This document shows positions 16,857 to 63,400 of a DNA stretch of 64,000 nt, piece by piece; the stretch's first letter is position 1; each line of letters opens with the position of its first letter. The DNA is from Mycosarcoma maydis (taxonomy: Eukaryota > Basidiomycota > Ustilaginomycetes > Ustilaginales). Both the position numbers and the translations under genes were made by a program. The notes below the pieces were generated by a model. The model ran no database searches. It was not told the DNA's origin and was given only the letters and a program-made list of their open reading frames with translations. The stretch lies in NCBI RefSeq assembly GCF_000328475.2, contig NC_026500.1, forward strand, positions 186,001 to 250,000, in the 5' to 3' direction.

Positions 16857-16890
16857 GAATCACGAATCACGAATCACGAATCACGAATCA
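16857..16890 (+). repeat. Tandem AATCACG heptamer array
   Basis: Four to five head-to-tail 7-bp units of AATCACG. Same heptamer as the dispersed motif. Confidence 0.8.
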
Positions 16891-17156
16891 CCAATCTGAA
16901 TGGCGCGCCGCCTAATCACGAATTATTAGATATAAAATAGATTACGAATGTGTCATCGTAGCGCTTGAAACCGAACCGAACCAAACCAGGAATCACGAAT
17001 CTACCCAGCAAGACTCGTGACTTGAGAGAATCGCGATCGTCGATACGTTAACTTTTGTGCTTATTTAGTAATATTAATAAATGGAGAATCGTGAATATTA
17101 TGCGTCGATGCTGCAAATCAAATTCCAAAGCGAACACCATCAACCCACCGATGGCC

Positions 17157-17580: not shown

Positions 17581-17687
17581 GATTTACGATTTACGATTTA
17601 CGATTTACGATTTACGATTTACGATTTACGATTTACGATTTACGATTTACGATTTACGATTTACGATTTACGATTCACGATTCACTC
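17581..17687 (+). repeat. 7-bp tandem array GATTTAC/GATTCAC, about 15 copies
   Basis: About 13 head-to-tail copies of GATTTAC, followed by two GATTCAC copies, cover roughly 107 bp. The unit is a T variant of the dispersed motif (ATT-TACG-ATT). The period is constant and nothing suggests coding, CRISPR or telomere function. Confidence 0.9.
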
Positions 17688-22920: not shown

Positions 22921-24034
22921 GGTGAGTGTCAATGGAAGTGTGACGATCTGAACAAGCAACGAGCACGGATGCAAGGTCGTATGAGACGCACGTCGGGACA
23001 TCAAGACCGGACAACGGCGTTTGTCAATGTGGCTATACACTGCAGAGCTGACTCTCCAGCGAATGATTCCGACGCAATCTGATGCAATGCGTAGTGGCGC
23101 TTGCAATGGGTTGGATGGTGACGGTGCAGATAGCGAGTAAAGCACAAAATGCGCTTGCGATCGATGCCGGTTGTTGCCTCGGGCGCTGACGCTCGCACAC
23201 CCACGCTCCGTGGCTCACGACTGTGTTTCGCGGCGTGTGAAATGCTCAAACATCCCAAAAAATTTCCATCAATCGTCAATCGAGAATCGTGTAGGTTATC
23301 GTGAATCGTGAATCCATCCGTCGATACTCGTGACTCTCACCAACGCACAGACGCTTCTGGTTGCACAAGTGCCCGCTTCTCGCACCAACCCAAGAACCGC
23401 ATCGTTACGCGCGCGCTCGCGTATCGCTCGACTCGTAACTCACAGACAACTCGCTCGTCGTGATTTTCGCTCGCTAAGTCGTGAATGAAGTGAGTCACGA
23501 GTGCTAATATCCCAACTTTCCACGCACAACGACAGAATCATGCACGGTGCACGATGCGCATCACGTTTCACCATTCGTCCGTTCTTGCACCATCCTGAGC
23601 ACATCTTGTATCCGTGCAAAGATGCGTTGCAAATCGGATCCATGTGTGGGTGACGTAAGGCTCTCGCACGCACCAAACTGATGCTGACGGTCATCGTTGT
23701 TAGGTCATGTCGTTCAGGGTGATGTTCGCCACCCCACGCATCACGGGACTTGGCAGGGATTGATTCACGATCGTGATTTGAATTGTGAATAAGAATTCAC
23801 GATTGTGATAAAATATTGTGAATTGAATCGAATTGGATCGGATCGCAAACACGCTGTAACAGCTCGAAAAGCGCAACATGGAGTTCTACAAGATAAAGTA
23901 AGTTATTCGTGATTCGTGATTCGTGGTTCGTGATTGCCTGCCATGCTGTGTGACAAAAGCTTACAACACCGCAGCCTGCGGTGCCGATGGCTTTACCTTG
24001 TCATGCATCTCGATGGCGAGCGTTTCTGCCGTGT
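22921..24034. other. Intergenic region with AATCGTGAAT and AGTCACGAGT motifs
   Basis: No gene supported. Motif copies sit near 23.29-23.33 kb (AATCGTGAAT, ACTCGTGACT), at about 23.49 kb (AGTCACGAGT) and at 23.76-23.93 kb as chained ATTCGTG units. The rest is unremarkable. Confidence 0.5.
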
Positions 24035-54234: not shown

Positions 54235-54660
54235 GATACTCTTAACCCCACTGAACCCCAGCGAGGAGAACACCTCGATCCTCCTCGCCGCCCACACGCA
54301 TATCGACACCAAGTACGCGAATACCAACAAGTGTATGGCTCTGTTCATATACAAGCGTCATGCTGACGGTATCTATGTGCTCTAAATCGGCAAGACCTGG
54401 GAGAAGATCGTCCTCGCTGCCATTGTTCTTGCCGCCATTAAGGACCCTGCTGATATCTGTGTCGTCTTCGGCCATCAGTACGGTTTGGGTTCAAGATCGC
54501 TGCTCGGACCAGTGTCATCGCTATCGTTGGCCGATTCACCCTCGATTTTTTCACCAACTACATCAGCCGTTCGTTCAAGTAGCCCCGTGTCATGGTCGTC
54601 ACCAGCCCCCGTGTCAACCATCAGGCCATCCACGAGGCTTCGTCATCCTCGGAGCCACAC
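54235..54660 (+). pseudogene. Retropseudogene of ribosomal protein S0/SA (uS2)
   Basis: An intron-free, decayed copy of the 40S protein. Recognisable pieces: NPSEENTSILLAAHTHIDTK, FIYKRHADGIYVL, a stop codon, [20 protein letters not shown], and, after a frameshift near 54485, [20 protein letters not shown], another stop, then [20 protein letters not shown]. The order and spacing follow uS2 closely. The lack of introns suggests reverse transcription of mRNA; it starts about 50 bp after the copia relic in the same orientation. Confidence 0.8.
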
Positions 54661-54681
54661 TAAGAGCCACCTGCGAGGGGG

Positions 54682-54756
54682 GGTTGCTGCGAGAAGCCAT
54701 CTAGGAGCCACCTGGGGTGGTTCCTAGGACGACTTTTTCCTTTTTGTCACGACGTG
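54682..54756 (+). repeat. Direct repeat, copy 1 (left of pogo relic)
   Basis: Begins GGTTGCTGCGAGAAGCCATC and ends TTTTGTCACGACGTG; about 75 bp. It is near-identical to 57481-57566 apart from a small internal duplication in the other copy. A weaker AGAGCCAC match extends both copies some 20-30 bp to the left. Confidence 0.8.
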
Positions 54757-55370
54757 AATCATGAATCGGAACACACAAGTCATGAGTGACCAGACGGGAA
54801 CGAGTAAGTGCCGCTGCACGGGGGGTCTCATGCGGAGGTATCATGGTTCGCCCGCGGGTCTCGTAACTCGTCAGAGGTTCCCACTACACTCATGACTGGC
54901 GGGTGATCATAAAGCATGACTGATAATCACAGATTCACGATTGTGAATTCCCAAGAAATTGCAACCACGAATAAGTTATCACGACTCAGCTTTTACGCTC
55001 ACAGCCATAAATAGTGATTTCGTACAACTACGACATGACACTCACGACTTTTCTGATAGCTCTAGTAAGGTATAACGTATTTGGTCGATTACCGGCCCAG
55101 GCACCGTTAACGGCTCAATTTTCATATACGATTAGATACTCTTTCTACGTGTACAAAGGATCATCTCAAGAATTTTATACTACCTGAAGAGGTCAATCTC
55201 ATCACTAATGTACTCTGCAGCTTCCGGAGAGTGTTCTGCCCACACATTCGAGCCGCCAGGGTCTCGGATGACTTCCATTATGGGAGCTCCTCCTCCTTCG
55301 GTCCATTCATACTGTAGACTCTCTCCTGAGCTGGAATACAGACCCACCCTGATGTCCGAGCCTATGTCAA
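54757..55370. other. Spacer between direct repeat and pogo relic
   Basis: AT-rich DNA with a few decayed motif copies (ATTCACGATTGTG near 54.93 kb). No gene or terminal inverted repeat recognised. Confidence 0.4.
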
Positions 55371-55374
55371 CATC

Positions 55375-57035
55375 AAAAGGTGATGGCGATGGTGATGGAC
55401 AACGAGCCCCAGCTCGTTTCTTACCGTTTGCCTTACGTTACGTTTTGGGGGCATCTTGGCGGCTTTCTCGCGTGCAACCGCGTCCCTAATTTCTTGACTG
55501 TTGATGATGCGCGCCTAAGCAATGCGGGTTTGATCGCCTGGGGTTCTAACTTGTCTATACTTAATATAGACCTGTAGATCTTCAACCTTCTGACGCAAAA
55601 GAATAGCTTCATCATGAAATTGACCTGCTGCCTTCACCATTTTGGATCAAAGATGACGAGATTCGCGTGTAAGACGCTCTGCTGAGCGGGTCTGACTTGC
55701 CATCGCTACTACTTGCCTCGAATTCTTCGGAGTTTGTGGTGCTGACACCGTGATGTGATTCTCCGGAGTTATATCTCTCTGTGGGAGCCTGGCTAATACC
55801 GGAGCAGCGGTAACAATATCACAAATGCCGACTGATTTGAACGCGGCCTTTCCAGCTCTTGTTGTGATGGTCTCGTTTCGGATCTTAGCGTAAACTTGCA
55901 GGAACTGAGGTTTGGTAACCGAAAGGCTGCTGCTTGCTAGCGACAAGATCTCGTCGCTATACCTCTTCTTCAATGGACCAAAAATGGATACGTCCAATGG
56001 CTGAAGAAGATGTGTGGTGTGCGGGGGAAAGCAGAACAAAATCATGTTATTCTGTTCTGCAAACTCGGCAAACTCGATGCTGAGATGCGAGTTGTGGCCG
56101 TCCAGAAGCAAGAGGCGCTTTTGATTTGCGTCTTGAGGCCGTGTGTAAGGTTCAAAACAGCCTTGTAGCCACTTGAGTCCAATGTGTCTATCGGTCCACC
56201 CATTTTTTGACACAGCAAAATGCCAATTGTCGGGGAGATTCTGCTCTCGGAACCATCCGTACATATGTGCTTGACCTTTCACAACGATCATCGGAGGAGG
56301 TATGGTCTGGCAACCAATACACTCAATAACCGTAGCACTTTCTCGTTGGTCTGGTTGAGTCTTGAATGCCGTGCTTTTCTTGTCTGTCTTGTGAACAAGA
56401 CTTTTTGACTTTGTGCCTTGCCAAAAACGAAGCCAGTCACGTCCATGTTGTAGGTTTTGTGGAGAGAAATAGCATTGTCTTCGATCGTTCTTTTCAGGAG
56501 GTCATAATGAGCATCAATGACGGTCTTGTTCGAAACCTTTGCTCTTGCGTGGTCTATACTACGGCTGAAACAGGATTGAACCGCCGGATGGCGATAAAGG
56601 AACCCCCGATGCCATCTCCTGCTGACATCTAGATCGCTGTCATCAACGTTCTGATTCTGGTTTGCACGGTAGAACGCTGCGGCGCGGTCAGTCAAGTGCT
56701 TGTAAGTGATGGGGAACCCTTGAACTGACATAGACTTGATATAGTGCTCAAGCAAGCATTCCTGTGATGTGGTGAGAAGTTGTCGGTGCGTATGTGCTTC
56801 CTGACGTGGCAGCACACCTTTTATACGCATTTGGAGGGTTGTATAAGGAATACCATGTTGTTGAGAGGCTTTGCGGATGGAGGAGATGGTTTCAGAATGA
56901 AGATCCTGGATTGCCTCCTCAATCTTAGAATTCACGATTCTCCAGCCCGTTCGGCTCGGAAAGAGATTCTTGTAGCCTATTACAGTTGCTTTGGCATACT
57001 GAGGACGGGTCTACATGTTAAAGAAAAATTGGATG
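55375..57035 (-). pseudogene. Broken pogo/Fot1-type (Tc1/mariner) transposase
   Basis: Minus strand. The N-terminal HTH part (SIRKASQQHGIPYTTLQMRI) and the CENP-B-type HTH (GFPITYKHLTDRAAAFYRAN, RRWHRGFLYRHP) lead into the DDE_1 catalytic domain: NMDVTGFVFG, LLLLDGHNSH, FCFPPHTTHLLQPLDVSIFG. A one-base frameshift near 56335 separates the two halves. After LTRESRHL a TGA interrupts the C-terminal extension (AILLRQKVEDLQVYIKYRQV), and a TAG breaks it again near 55520. The start is unclear because the frame opens only with GTG at 56935 or runs back to a TAG near 57020. Not functional, but decay is modest. Confidence 0.85.
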
Positions 57036-57480
57036 GTATGGAGAGTGAGGGATGATGGTGATATGAAAGGAGGATGGGGGAATCATAGGGAATCAGAACA
57101 TTCTTGCTTCATACTGTGCTGACGCGTTGGAAACCGCGTCGCGACGGGTAACTGCTCAACTAGGCCACTGAGCCGTTAATGTGCCTGAGCCGTTAATAGA
57201 CCACAAACGTTACGCCTTCGCTCTTGACTTCTCGGCTTTTCCATCTTGACCAACGAGATGCATTCGAAATTCGTGATTGGTTGAGCCACTAGTGAGTTTC
57301 TCGCAATAATTACTCACCACTCACAGACTCATTCGTGATTACATGCATTCATTCGTGATTATTATTTTGCTCCAATACCACGTCTTGTTCCCTTGTGTGT
57401 GATCTCCTATGTGACTGGCCGACAAGCTAATGAGAGGATGGCCGTCCTCAGAGCCACCCTAGGAGATGGCTGCACGGGGT

Positions 57481-57566
57481 GGTTGCTGCGAGAAGCCATC
57501 TAGGAGCCACTCAGGGTGGTTCCCGGGGTGGTTCCTAGGTCGACTTTTTCCTTTTTCCACGACGTG
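57481..57566 (+). repeat. Direct repeat, copy 2 (right of pogo relic)
   Basis: Same sequence and orientation as 54682-54756, with an internal doubling of the GGGTGGTTCC block. The two copies bracket the pogo relic with 2.7 kb between. Confidence 0.8.
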
Positions 57567-58593: not shown

Positions 58594-59105
58594 TTATTCG
58601 GCGCTATACGCGCGCGACACGCGCTCAATGCACCCGCAGTACGACCGCGGTACGCCCGCAAGTATAGTAACTCGCCAGAGTTTCCCCAGTTCACAACATA
58701 GCGCTGGTAGCGAGTAGCCCAGAGTAGATTCACACAAGTCGCTGGACGACTGTGGGAATATGCCGTTGGCTACAGACTCACGACTCGCACCAAGTGATAG
58801 AACCTGAAAGAGAACAGACTCACGCATCTGGCCAGTTGTGGCCACAGCTAGTCAGTTGTATGAGCAGGCGACGTATAGGGAGAAGCTCATGTAGGATACT
58901 CCAGTCGACTCATGTACATAAATCACGAATACAGAGGGAACGCTCACACTTTGTAGTTAGTCCCTCGTCCAAAACAAACTATCCAAATACATTCCAAACC
59001 ATTCTCGACCACTACTCAGTCCCAACTCGCCTCTCTAAGGAAAGGGAGACTTCGATCATTTAGCGCTCGCTAAAGATTTACCAAAATATCAATAAATCTG
59101 AATAG
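58594..59105 (+). mobile_element. Truncated copia LTR, inverted relative to the element at the right
   Basis: About 500 bp match the LTR at 59190-59870 in reverse orientation: GCTATACGCGCGCGACACGC, CAACATAGCGCTGGTAGCGA, GGCCAGTTGTGGCCACAGCT, TCTCTAAGGAAAGGGAGACT all recur. Its first part, which holds TGTTAGAATATC, is missing. Many differences are C/T or G/A changes. It carries two extra 7-bp blocks absent from the other copy (58776-58785 and 58921-58930). Confidence 0.85.
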
Positions 59106-59189: not shown

Positions 59190-59870
59190 CTGCCCTATTC
59201 AATATTCGCGGTGAATCCTTAGCGGGCGCTGGATGATCGAAGTCTCCCTTTCCTTAGAGAGGCGAGTTGGGACTGAGTAGGGTCGAGAATGGTTTGGGAT
59301 GTATTTGGATAGTGTGAATTGGACAAGGGACTAACTACAAAGTGTGAGCGTTCCCTCTGTATTTATGTACATGAGTCGACTGGAGTATCCTACATGAGCT
59401 TCTCCCTATACGTCAGCTCCTCATACAACTGACTAGCTGTGGCCACAACTGGCCAGATGCATGAGTCTGTTCTCCCTCAGGTTCTTCCACTTGGTACGAG
59501 TCTGTAGCCAACGGCGTGTTCCCACAGTCGTCCAGCGACTTGTGTGAATCTACTCTGGGCTTCTCGCTACCAGCGCTATGTTGTGAAGCGGGGAAACTCT
59601 GGCGAGTTACTATACTTGCGCGCGTACCGCGGTCGTACTGCGGGTGCATTGAGCGCGTGTCGCGCGCGTATGGCGCGCGTACTGCGAGTGTATCGCACGC
59701 GTACCGCGGACGTACTGCGGGTGCATTGAGCGCGTGTCGCGCGCGTATAGCGCGCGTACTGAGACACCTACTCGTTCCCGTCCGGTCACTCGTGTATACC
59801 GGTTAGGTTACTGCAAGGGTTGCATGATTGTGGGCGATCAGACTAAACGCCAATCGTAGATATTCTAACA
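59190..59870 (-). mobile_element. 3' LTR of the copia element
   Basis: On the minus strand the LTR starts TGTTAGAATATC at 59870, right after a polypurine tract, and runs to about 59190-59211; the distal end is not certain (a TG...CA boundary at 59211 is possible). A TATA-like ACATAAATACAG sits within it. A GC-rich block of about 95 bp (CGCGTACCGCGG, GTACTGCGGGTGCATTGAGC) is tandemly doubled between 59618 and 59760. Confidence 0.8.
59618..59760 (-). repeat. GC-rich tandem duplication within the LTR
   Basis: GTACTGCGGGTGCATTGAGC and the following GTGTCGCGCGCGTAT occur twice, about 75-95 bp apart. The truncated LTR at 58594 retains one copy. CGCG-rich palindromic steps make it prone to slippage. 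Confidence 0.7.
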
Positions 59871-60479: not shown

Positions 60480-63400
60480 AGGTTGTGAAAGGCAGATGTT
60501 TCCGTCATGGAGTTTATTGAGAGGATTTCTCGTTGGACCTGTCTTTCAGGCCAATCTCCTTGCAGAACTTTTCGATCTGCTGACGGTTGAGCGTCTTTGT
60601 GAGCGCATCCGCTCGTTGCTCCCCTGACTCGGTATATTCGATGTTGATAACACCGACGGCGGCCAATTCGCGTATCTTGTGGTAGATTCGATGTCGATGT
60701 GCTTTGTAGCCTTGTGAAGTACCGGGTTCTTGCATAGCTGGATCGCTGCCTGGTTGTCAATGTAGTGAGGTATTGCTTCTTTTCCTCGAAGTTGAAGGGA
60801 ATGAAACAGGCTTCTGATCCACAACGCTTCTTTCGCGCCTTCCGCGGCCGCGATATATTCAGCCATTTGTGTTGAGGTTGCGATGATAGGTTGTTGTTTG
60901 GATAGCCAGCTGATTGGGGAACCGTTCATTAGGAAGATCATTCCTGTGACGCTTTTGCGAGGGGTGTTTGTTGTGTCGACCGGTATGACGGATCTTGTTT
61001 TTGGTGGTTAACTCTTGATTGGGAGAGTAAATCGCCTTCTGGTTTGCAAAATCAGCGTCCGTGAAGACCTCTAGGGTCAGATTCCTCCCACTCGCTTAGT
61101 TTGGGGAACCGGAGGCGATAGTCCTGCGTAGTCTTGAGGTAACGGAGAAGGTGTTTTCCAGCAGAGAGTGCGTGGATCGTCGGTTGAGCTAAATAGCGGC
61201 TGAGAGCTTGTACCGCGTATGCCACATCTGGTCGAGTGTAGCAAGCCAGGTAGTTGACAGAGCCTACGTAGCTGTTGGAAGAGTTCCTTGTCCGCGACGG
61301 AGCAGTGCTCGGGGTTTTCGGGATGAGCAATGCCAGTGGCGGGTAATGGTGTGAAGGCGGGTTTCGCTTCGAGCATCTGGAAACGATCGAGGATCTTTTG
61401 GATGTAACCCAGGTTGGCCTAGGGAAGTGGAATTGGTAGATTTCGACACGCTGACGTTGAGCACAGAAGATAAATCGCCCTGATCTGTGATTTTAAAATG
61501 AGTTTGGATTTCGGTGTGGAGCCAGGCGAGTTCCGATGCTTTTGGTGACGCAGCGACGAGGTCATCGACGTATAATGCAAGTAAGATCTGTCGTCCGGCC
61601 TTCTTGGAATGAAAGAGGCAGTGGTCTTCTTGCAGTTTCGTGAATCCGAGCTGTTCGAGTACCTTCGTAGCGAAGAGGTACCATTCGCGGCCGGCTTGCT
61701 TGAGACCGTAGATGGCTTTGTTCAGGAAGCAGACCTTCCCGGGTACTTCGTGACCGGGAGGCATCGTCATGTATACTTCTGCCGATAGGCGTCCGTTTAA
61801 GAAAGCCAGTGACTGCGTCCCAATGAACAATCTTCCAGTCGAATGCCGCGGCGAGGCCCGATGAGGATGCGTAACGTGGTGGCCTTTACTACTGGAGAGA
61901 AGGTTTCGTCGTAGTCGTATCCGTATCGCTGTGTGAAGCCTCGTGCGACGAGTCGTGCCTTGTATTTGTCGAGAGATCCATCGGCCTTTTTCTTGATGGC
62001 GAATACCCATTTGCAGCTGACCACATTGGTGGGCTTGCTTTGTGGGTGGTCTACGAGGGTCCAAGTCTTTGTTGGATTCATGACTTTTGAGTTCTGCCTG
62101 GATGGCACCTTCCCATAGGGGCCAGTCGGCGCGCATGCGAGCTTGTTTCAGGGTGGCCGGTGGCTTTGAAAGATTTGTTGTCACGTGCCGGGCGTAATCG
62201 CCAAGTCTGTGGGGCCTTGCCCTAAGGTTGTAACGTGACTCGTCACCCGTGCTCTCGTTTGCGTTGTTTTTGTCTCCCACTGTTCTTGTATCTCCCACTG
62301 TTGTTGTATCTCCTCCCACTGTTTGGTGAGGAGTCGGGAGAAGAGCGAGAGAGTCATCGGACTCGTCATCTATTTCTTGATGCCGCGATGGGGAGTCCCG
62401 GCCTCGGATGTCTTGAGGTCGCCTTCTTGAGGGAATAAGGTTGATCGGTTCATGGAATTCGTCATCTGTGGATTCTGCTGAAGGAACAAGTTGTTGAGTT
62501 GGACTCTCCAGTGAATCACCGCTCTCGGTAGTATTTGCTAATTGCGCTTCCTCTATTGAGGCGAGATGAGGGTAGTTGGTGGCTCCCACTGGTTGACTGG
62601 GTTCTTCGGACGATGGGGAAGTCCTTGGGATGTTCAGCGATGAGCGGACCGGGGCCGGTAATCCTGGCCTCGGGAGATTGTTTCCCGTGGTTCCAGTTTC
62701 ATCATCTGAAAGTTCCTCGAAGGGGGCTTCAGATTTTCGCCGAATCCGCTCGTTCTCCCGGAAGATGACGTGCCGACTTGTGAAGATCTGGCCGGTTTCT
62801 ACGTCCATGAGTCTGTATATGTAAGGGTGGTTATTGCTAACATGTCCCAGGTGTATGCATTCAACAGACTTGGGATCCAGGGATTTGCGGAGTTCGTCAG
62901 GTACGCGTGCCCATGCTTTACACCCAAAGACCCGGAGGCCTTGAAGATCCTGGCGTTTGCCATGCATTCCTTCATGAGGTGTCTTGGAAGAATCCGTGCT
63001 GGTGGCCGACATGTTTCGAAGCTTCAGCCCGTGACTGAAGGCGAATGGCCAGTACTGGGTAGTCAAGTTTGCTTCTTCTAGCATGCACCGAATATAATCC
63101 TTGACAATCTGGTTAGTGCGCTCCACGAGACCGTTGGATTGTGGTGTGAATCTTGGAGTGACCTCTCGTCCTATACCTCGGTGATTGAGGGTAGTTCGAG
63201 AACTCTCTGCTCAAGAATTCACCACCATTGTCCGTTCGGACTCGGCAGATACGCTTTCCCAGTTGCGTTTGGGTCCATCGATCGATGGTTCGGAATGCTT
63301 GGAAGGCTGATGACTTATAGATCAGTGCCGCCCCGAAGCAGTATCTCGTGCAATCGTCCACCATGAGTAGGTAATATTTCTCTTTGGATAAGCCTTCCGG

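Follow-up and report, generated by a model that had tools for sequence, protein, structure and literature searches.

We propose that the 7-bp blocks distinguishing two LTR copies in the window (the whole 64,000-base stretch of DNA analysed here) are probably footprints left by the excision of a cut-and-paste transposon that has CACG...CGTG ends and duplicates a 3-bp ANT target. An empty copy has a single ANT at such a site, and a filled copy has two, separated by CACG or CGTG.

Seven-base gains in LTR copies and other paralogs

The window holds two related LTR copies (Table 1), the right one adjoining an open reading frame (61264-63084, minus strand) that we take, from its motifs, to be copia-type. 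An earlier interpretation of the window from its letters (the sequence-only reading) had called the two copies homologous, which was borne out by an identity of 91% over 482 aligned columns (blastn), and had placed seven extra bases in the left copy at two sites. Both insertions were confirmed: the left copy has AAT-CACG-AAT and ACT-CACG-ACT, whereas in the right copy AAT (ACATAAATACAG at 59357-59368, minus strand) and ACT (ACAGACTCGTACC) are each present just once. Besides these two blocks, the sole length difference in the alignment is 1 bp. The AAT block is a clear gain, because the 7-bp insertion is absent from 48 of the 49 other LTR copies compared and the remaining one (L026:9384) carries AATCGTG. 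Within the young LTR we also noted GC-rich tandem repeats of 22/44 bp (59618-59761), where some copies lack 20 or 55 bases.

Table 1. Features of the window bearing on the 7-bp blocks and their proposed source
Feature	Position	Strand	Remarks
Left LTR copy, copia-type	58601..59082	+	older, truncated; blastn against right copy, 91%
Right LTR copy	59194..59800	-	young; limits approximate; beside minus-strand, presumably copia-type coding sequence
Footprint AAT-CACG-AAT	58921..58930	+	AATCACGAAT; left LTR copy, 7 bp gained
Footprint ACT-CACG-ACT	58776..58785	+	ACTCACGACT; left LTR copy
AAT target, empty	59361..59363	-	right LTR copy
ACT target, empty	59499..59501	-	right LTR copy
Family end (CACGTCGTGGAAAAAGGAAAAAGTCG...)	57333..57566	-	outer triplet ATC, not ANT
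Second family end	54646..54756	-	outer triplet ATT, preceded by ATT-CATG-ATT within an old LTR-related piece
Tandem heptamer array (GAATCAC)5.7	16857..16896		unit same as the footprint's
Tandem heptamer array (ATTCGTG)4.4	23905..23935		
Tandem array of GATTTAC, 14.6 copies	17581..17682		heptamer one base off the footprint unit

The genome comprises 19,664,356 bases in 27 contigs, from which we drew a 264-kb sample: the window plus 20 regions of 10 kb each, of which 19 were picked for holding LTR copies. For the LTR comparison, 63 LTR pieces from 20 of these 21 sequences were each compared with the right copy, and paralogs were used in place of alleles throughout. L numbers (for example L009:8713) denote genome loci and q numbers denote LTR positions. 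A gene in the window has its closest named relatives, at 79-80%, in the smuts Ustilago trichophora and Pseudozyma hubeiensis.

Precise 7-bp gains occurred at varied ANT sites in different LTR copies, including ATT at q250, AGT at q260, AAT at q282, ACT at q298, AGT at q309 and q366, AAT at q437 and others. The core was usually CACG or CGTG, and most altered cores were seen in copies of greater age. Different copies may carry different cores at one site: CACG, CGTG and CATG each occur once among three copies at q260, and at q437 L026 has CGTG where the copy in the window has CACG. These gains have the anatomy that defines a footprint, that is, a target duplication around a few bases at sites that are empty elsewhere.

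An all-against-all comparison of the 264 kb yielded 111 distinct indels of 7 bp, compared with 17 at 6 bp and 21 at 8 bp. A second peak lay at 14 bp (22, compared with 6 at 13 bp and 1 at 15 bp), with further peaks at 1-3, 11, 12 and 20 bp. Exact ANT-core-ANT with at most one core base changed, a class that by definition only 7-bp indels can satisfy, accounted for 54 of the 111, and 30 of these 54 lay outside the LTR. A looser 'near' class held 20 of the 111 but also 22 of 123 indels with lengths of 4-6 and 8-10 bp; weight therefore falls only on the exact class and the length peak. The sequence-only reading had suggested one mechanism, a 4-bp core with a 3-bp target duplication at differing triplets. 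The exact class supports a single mechanism of this form, with two amendments: most targets are ANT, and the excision leftover of a longer transposon is a better reading of the 4 bp than a 4-bp mobile element.

Genome-wide, ANTCACGANT has 27,565 matches compared with 127 + 135 for a reversed control, making it about 100 times commoner (with tandem copies counted more than once); the middle base was equal on both sides in 93 of the first 100 places listed. In the window, identical triplets flank 110 of 651 CACG/CGTG cores, compared with 1,722 of 63,990 across all cores. The repeated triplet was ANT in 570 of 645 cases in the 264-kb sample, where a triplet before CACG was repeated after it in 570 of 781 instances of ANT and in 75 of 1,194 instances of other triplets. 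None of the window's 84 exact footprints lies within an open reading frame of at least 300 amino acids (28,419 of 64,000 bases), and eight lie within those of at least 150 amino acids (32,969 bases), a distribution to be expected if selection acts on 7-bp frameshifts.

A candidate parent family

Among 209 distinct ANT-CACG sites at which the same triplet does not follow, one group continues CACGTCGT(G/A)AAAAAAGGAAAAAGTCG... A 24-base pattern for this family end, allowing up to three mismatches, has 31 genome matches and a control none, and a longer probe has at least 50. Thirty ends were retained from 44 rows after removing 14 that did not align from base 1, with L033 and L037 omitted as duplicates. 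Their first bases are CACG in 23, CACA in five, CACC in one and CATG in one, and ANT lies outside 25 of the 30, counts to be read with the bias that the family was first spotted through ANT preceding CACG. The five ends with another triplet outside include the window's 57566. Leaving aside L039-L041, which were fetched because they looked two-ended, ANT lies outside 19 of 24 ends and 18 of 24 start with CACG.

Inward-facing end pairs within 6 kb number nine, which overlap and so represent at most six real ones. Outer triplets match in two of the nine (L025:1684-4745, ATT/ATT; L040, AAT/AAT) and differ in seven, among them L039 (ATT/AAT, or AATT/AATT if the duplication is 4 bp) and pairs in L018, L019 and L025; nested insertions around the pairs make the true partners uncertain. 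At L009, where the interrupted LTR marks both sides, the triplets are AGT/AGT and the right end reads TGTG. Long inverted ends are present in L025, L039 and L040, and the two ends of L009 are alike in little beyond CAC(G). In L026 a family end interrupts a pogo-like relic at AAT, and this AAT is single in L013 and L036. Many of the known family ends lie near LTR-rich regions; footprints are found everywhere.

The sequence-only reading had proposed looking for empty and filled sites among copies of the LTR. Across LTR paralogs both states were found at many ANT sites, and at q298 and q309 the element was found as well. Most copies are empty at q309, reading ACCAAGTGG or close to it, but in L009 AGT-CACG-AGT is followed by the element and a further AGT, and L023 reads AGT-CACG-AGT-CGTG-AGT. 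At q298, the ACT site of the left copy, most copies have one ACT and eight have ACT-CACG-ACT; in L019 (L019:6466) ACT-CGTG-ACT is followed by a family end reading CACC, with a blurred right junction. Near the opposite end of the LTR unit, the window's family end at 54756 follows ATT-CATG-ATT, and L023 has ATT-CGTG-ATT-CGTG-ATT there. Element and footprint are present at the same site in different paralogs at both q298 and q309, and for paralogs a shared history is presumed.

Seven of 24 family ends, two of them near-duplicates, sit directly beside a same-triplet footprint (window 54756, L009:8713, L019:6466, L022:9713, L024:802 and 5867, and L025:2617). This adjacency looks as if it exceeds chance, and local re-insertion or target preference is a possible cause.

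In none of the family copies could a transposase of its own be recognised; the profile scan covered four reading frames of L039 and returned a reverse-transcriptase scrap but no DD34E/D transposase of the Tc1/mariner kind. About 1 kb inward from the family end in L038 there is a DDE_1 relic, which is read as a neighbour because its DDE_1 family has other ends. Of the pogo-like DDE_1 genes (13 matches, of which L033-L038 were read), L035, L036, L013 and L038 were rejected as parent, as by eye they have a TTCATGTAGTACCG-like end in common. The window has its own pogo-like (DDE_1) relic in two frames (55647-56935, minus strand), within a 2.1-kb stretch (about 55144-57212) that is 90% identical to L020:5754-7813.

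Among the DDE_3 genes (L029-L032) no parent was identified. The ends of L032 read TA-CAGCGCGCG, and CACG ends were not seen around L030 or L031, the element limits of both being unsettled. Same-triplet ANT-CAYG/CRTG-ANT pairs occur around L029, L031, L034 and L035, with just 5 to 12 of 24 end bases alike. The best of the genome's four DDE_3 matches is an intact 362-amino-acid Tc1-like gene with HTH and DDE_3 (L029:1336-2421, minus strand), whose element ends could not be defined. Among the 12 proteins listed as its relatives, one being itself, eight are named, seven from smuts (best 59%) and one from a mite. We regard this transposase as a candidate only for the enzyme of the scar system. DDE_Tnp_4 was also rejected, as the two examined of its three matches (L042 and L043) have no CACG ends at matching ANT. 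The PF02992 and PF18759 profiles have no match here, and none in any control genome either.

Mechanism and rival explanations

In the mechanism we propose, a transposase would insert the element at ANT with a 3-base stagger, duplicating the triplet. Excision would then cut about four bases inside the element ends, leaving behind the terminal bases of one end (CACG or, from the opposite end, CGTG), and end joining would produce ANT-CACG-ANT or ANT-CGTG-ANT. Each scar would offer two new ANT targets, allowing scars to stack, and slippage could later extend some of them into heptamer arrays. Scars outnumber recognisable ends by several hundred to one, which implies that the element mostly moved rather than multiplied, or that its copies were lost.

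We consider it unlikely that the scars derive instead from another transposon, since lost, that had CACG-like ends and an ANT target, the CACGTCGT family being its relative or a passenger. Such a source would fit the lack of a recognised transposase inside the family, the 31 family pattern matches set against 27,565 scar matches genome-wide, and the matching triplets in just two of nine possible end pairs; it sits poorly with terminal CACG in 23 of 30 family ends, an ANT flank in 25 of 30, and the element and footprint found at the same LTR sites. Still less probable is a break-repair micro-insertion involving no transposon, in which 4 bp (CACG or CGTG) would be added at ANT and 3 bp filled in. 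That both the 4-base sequence and the palindromic target are fixed demands a sequence-specific enzyme, and the family ends mostly carry CACG at ANT, although scars far more numerous than elements are what such repair would leave.

That the heptamers spread by polymerase slippage or template switching is very improbable. Matches are balanced between orientations genome-wide (13,811 and 13,754), as are single scars (202 plus, 202 minus), and among 70 doubles 40 have the same and 30 a mixed orientation, duplicates being included in both scar counts. With orientations equal and doubles often mixed, slippage alone fails; in its favour is the slight same-orientation excess in doubles. A single insertion with no prior heptamer cannot slip, and single events are seen at many separate ANT sites. 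Long arrays, such as that of 14.6 copies (Table 1), do speak for slippage, which is thus disfavoured as the origin of scars and likely for the growth of arrays; the GATTTAC array is later growth of this kind.

Equally improbable is an ancestral LTR that carried both blocks and lost them in the right copy, the outcome that the sequence-only reading had set against its own account. For the AAT block, present in one of 50 copies and replaced by CGTG in another, the gain stands. The ACT block gives a less clean answer: eight copies have it (the left copy, L014 and six older ones), which could be taken to favour an ancestral state, but the most diverged of the copies covering the site lack it, and its spread on a poorly supported LTR tree is patchy. 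It would appear to be an older event whose history is less clean than the AAT block's; the patchiness may reflect LTR recombination or secondary loss.

Excision footprints of a cut-and-paste transposon remain our preferred reading. Extra CATG and CGCG, predicted from mixed overhang repair, did not hold up: genome-wide there are 1,768 CATG, 3,023 CACA/TGTG and 1,170 CGCG. After duplicate removal the LTR-rich 264-kb sample has 95 CATG and 39 CACA, so that CATG exceeds CACA there and falls below CACA/TGTG genome-wide. This contrast in decay products hints at a different mutation process in LTR-rich regions.

The ongoing activity envisaged by the sequence-only reading found no support, as the 31 young LTR copies hold no private footprint, which is weak evidence given that just 16 private substitutions were counted among them. 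The 19 old copies hold 12 to 14 private footprints and 65 private substitutions. Judged from these LTR sequences, the contrast between young and old is only suggestive of an extinction of scar activity. More tentatively, and with some doubt, we picture a hit-and-run transposon with an ANT target and a 4-base overhang that may have made tens of thousands of jumps and kept few copies, its scars coming to fill about 1% of the genome (27,565 exact matches x 7 bp, or about 193 kb) and to dominate intergenic short-indel evolution.

Comparison with known systems

Repeats of 10 bp scattered over the Ustilago maydis genome and between its genes have been suggested to be transposon footprints, as given in the available text of Ali et al. 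2014 (PMC4081816), which cites Laurie et al. 2012 and Schirawski et al. 2010 on them. ANT-CACG-ANT has the same length (3+4+3 = 10 bp) and, because of this, is probably the published repeat, a match of length rather than of compared letters. The available text of Ali et al. 2014 presents neither a rule for the target or the core nor any empty sites or parent element, all of which are treated here. The footprint idea is already published for this fungus, and the scar anatomy and candidate parent are new here. In the literature searched, with subscription papers largely outside it, we found no description of an ANT plus 4-base rule in smuts, and among the papers listed for the heptamer letters as a query there was nothing on Ustilago.

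The present work offers a rule (ANT, with a 4-base core supplied by one end or the other) and names a candidate source of the short repeats filling the intergenic DNA of a model plant pathogen, and makes the published footprint suggestion testable. The scars would document former insertion sites and end-joining repair, in a host fungus that repairs mainly through homologous recombination, and would account for a major indel class in strain comparisons, for which genomes of 22 further isolates are reported (PMC8120014).

Cyanobacterial small dispersed repeats are also very short inserts found genome-wide, tens of bases long, but unlike the scars here they have no 4-bp core and no ANT rule. CACTA (CMC) elements encode Transposase_21 and end in CACTA/CACTG; the candidate family ends in CACG. 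The pogo-like DDE_1 elements of this genome, judged by eye from L035, L036, L013 and L038, have termini that differ from those of the candidate parent. Tc1/mariner footprints (for example, those of Sleeping Beauty) consist of the target duplication, a few terminal bases from either end and the target duplication again. They have a TA target and 3 bases where the scars have ANT and 4 bases, and the scars and family ends described here lie mostly at ANT rather than at a TA duplication. To our knowledge, ANT target duplication is known solely from ciliate TBEs.

The TBE elements of Oxytricha are of the Tc1/mariner type and have a 3-bp ANT target duplication, according to the available text of PMC4724952. 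The TBE ends described there are telomere-repeat-like (CAAAACCCC...) and differ from the candidate family termini, which read CACGTCGT... TBEs also carry a 42-kDa transposase gene, and with the transposase profiles applied here no gene of TBE type was recognised. The ANT target duplication itself is shared with TBEs by the scars and, in part, by the elements of the candidate family.
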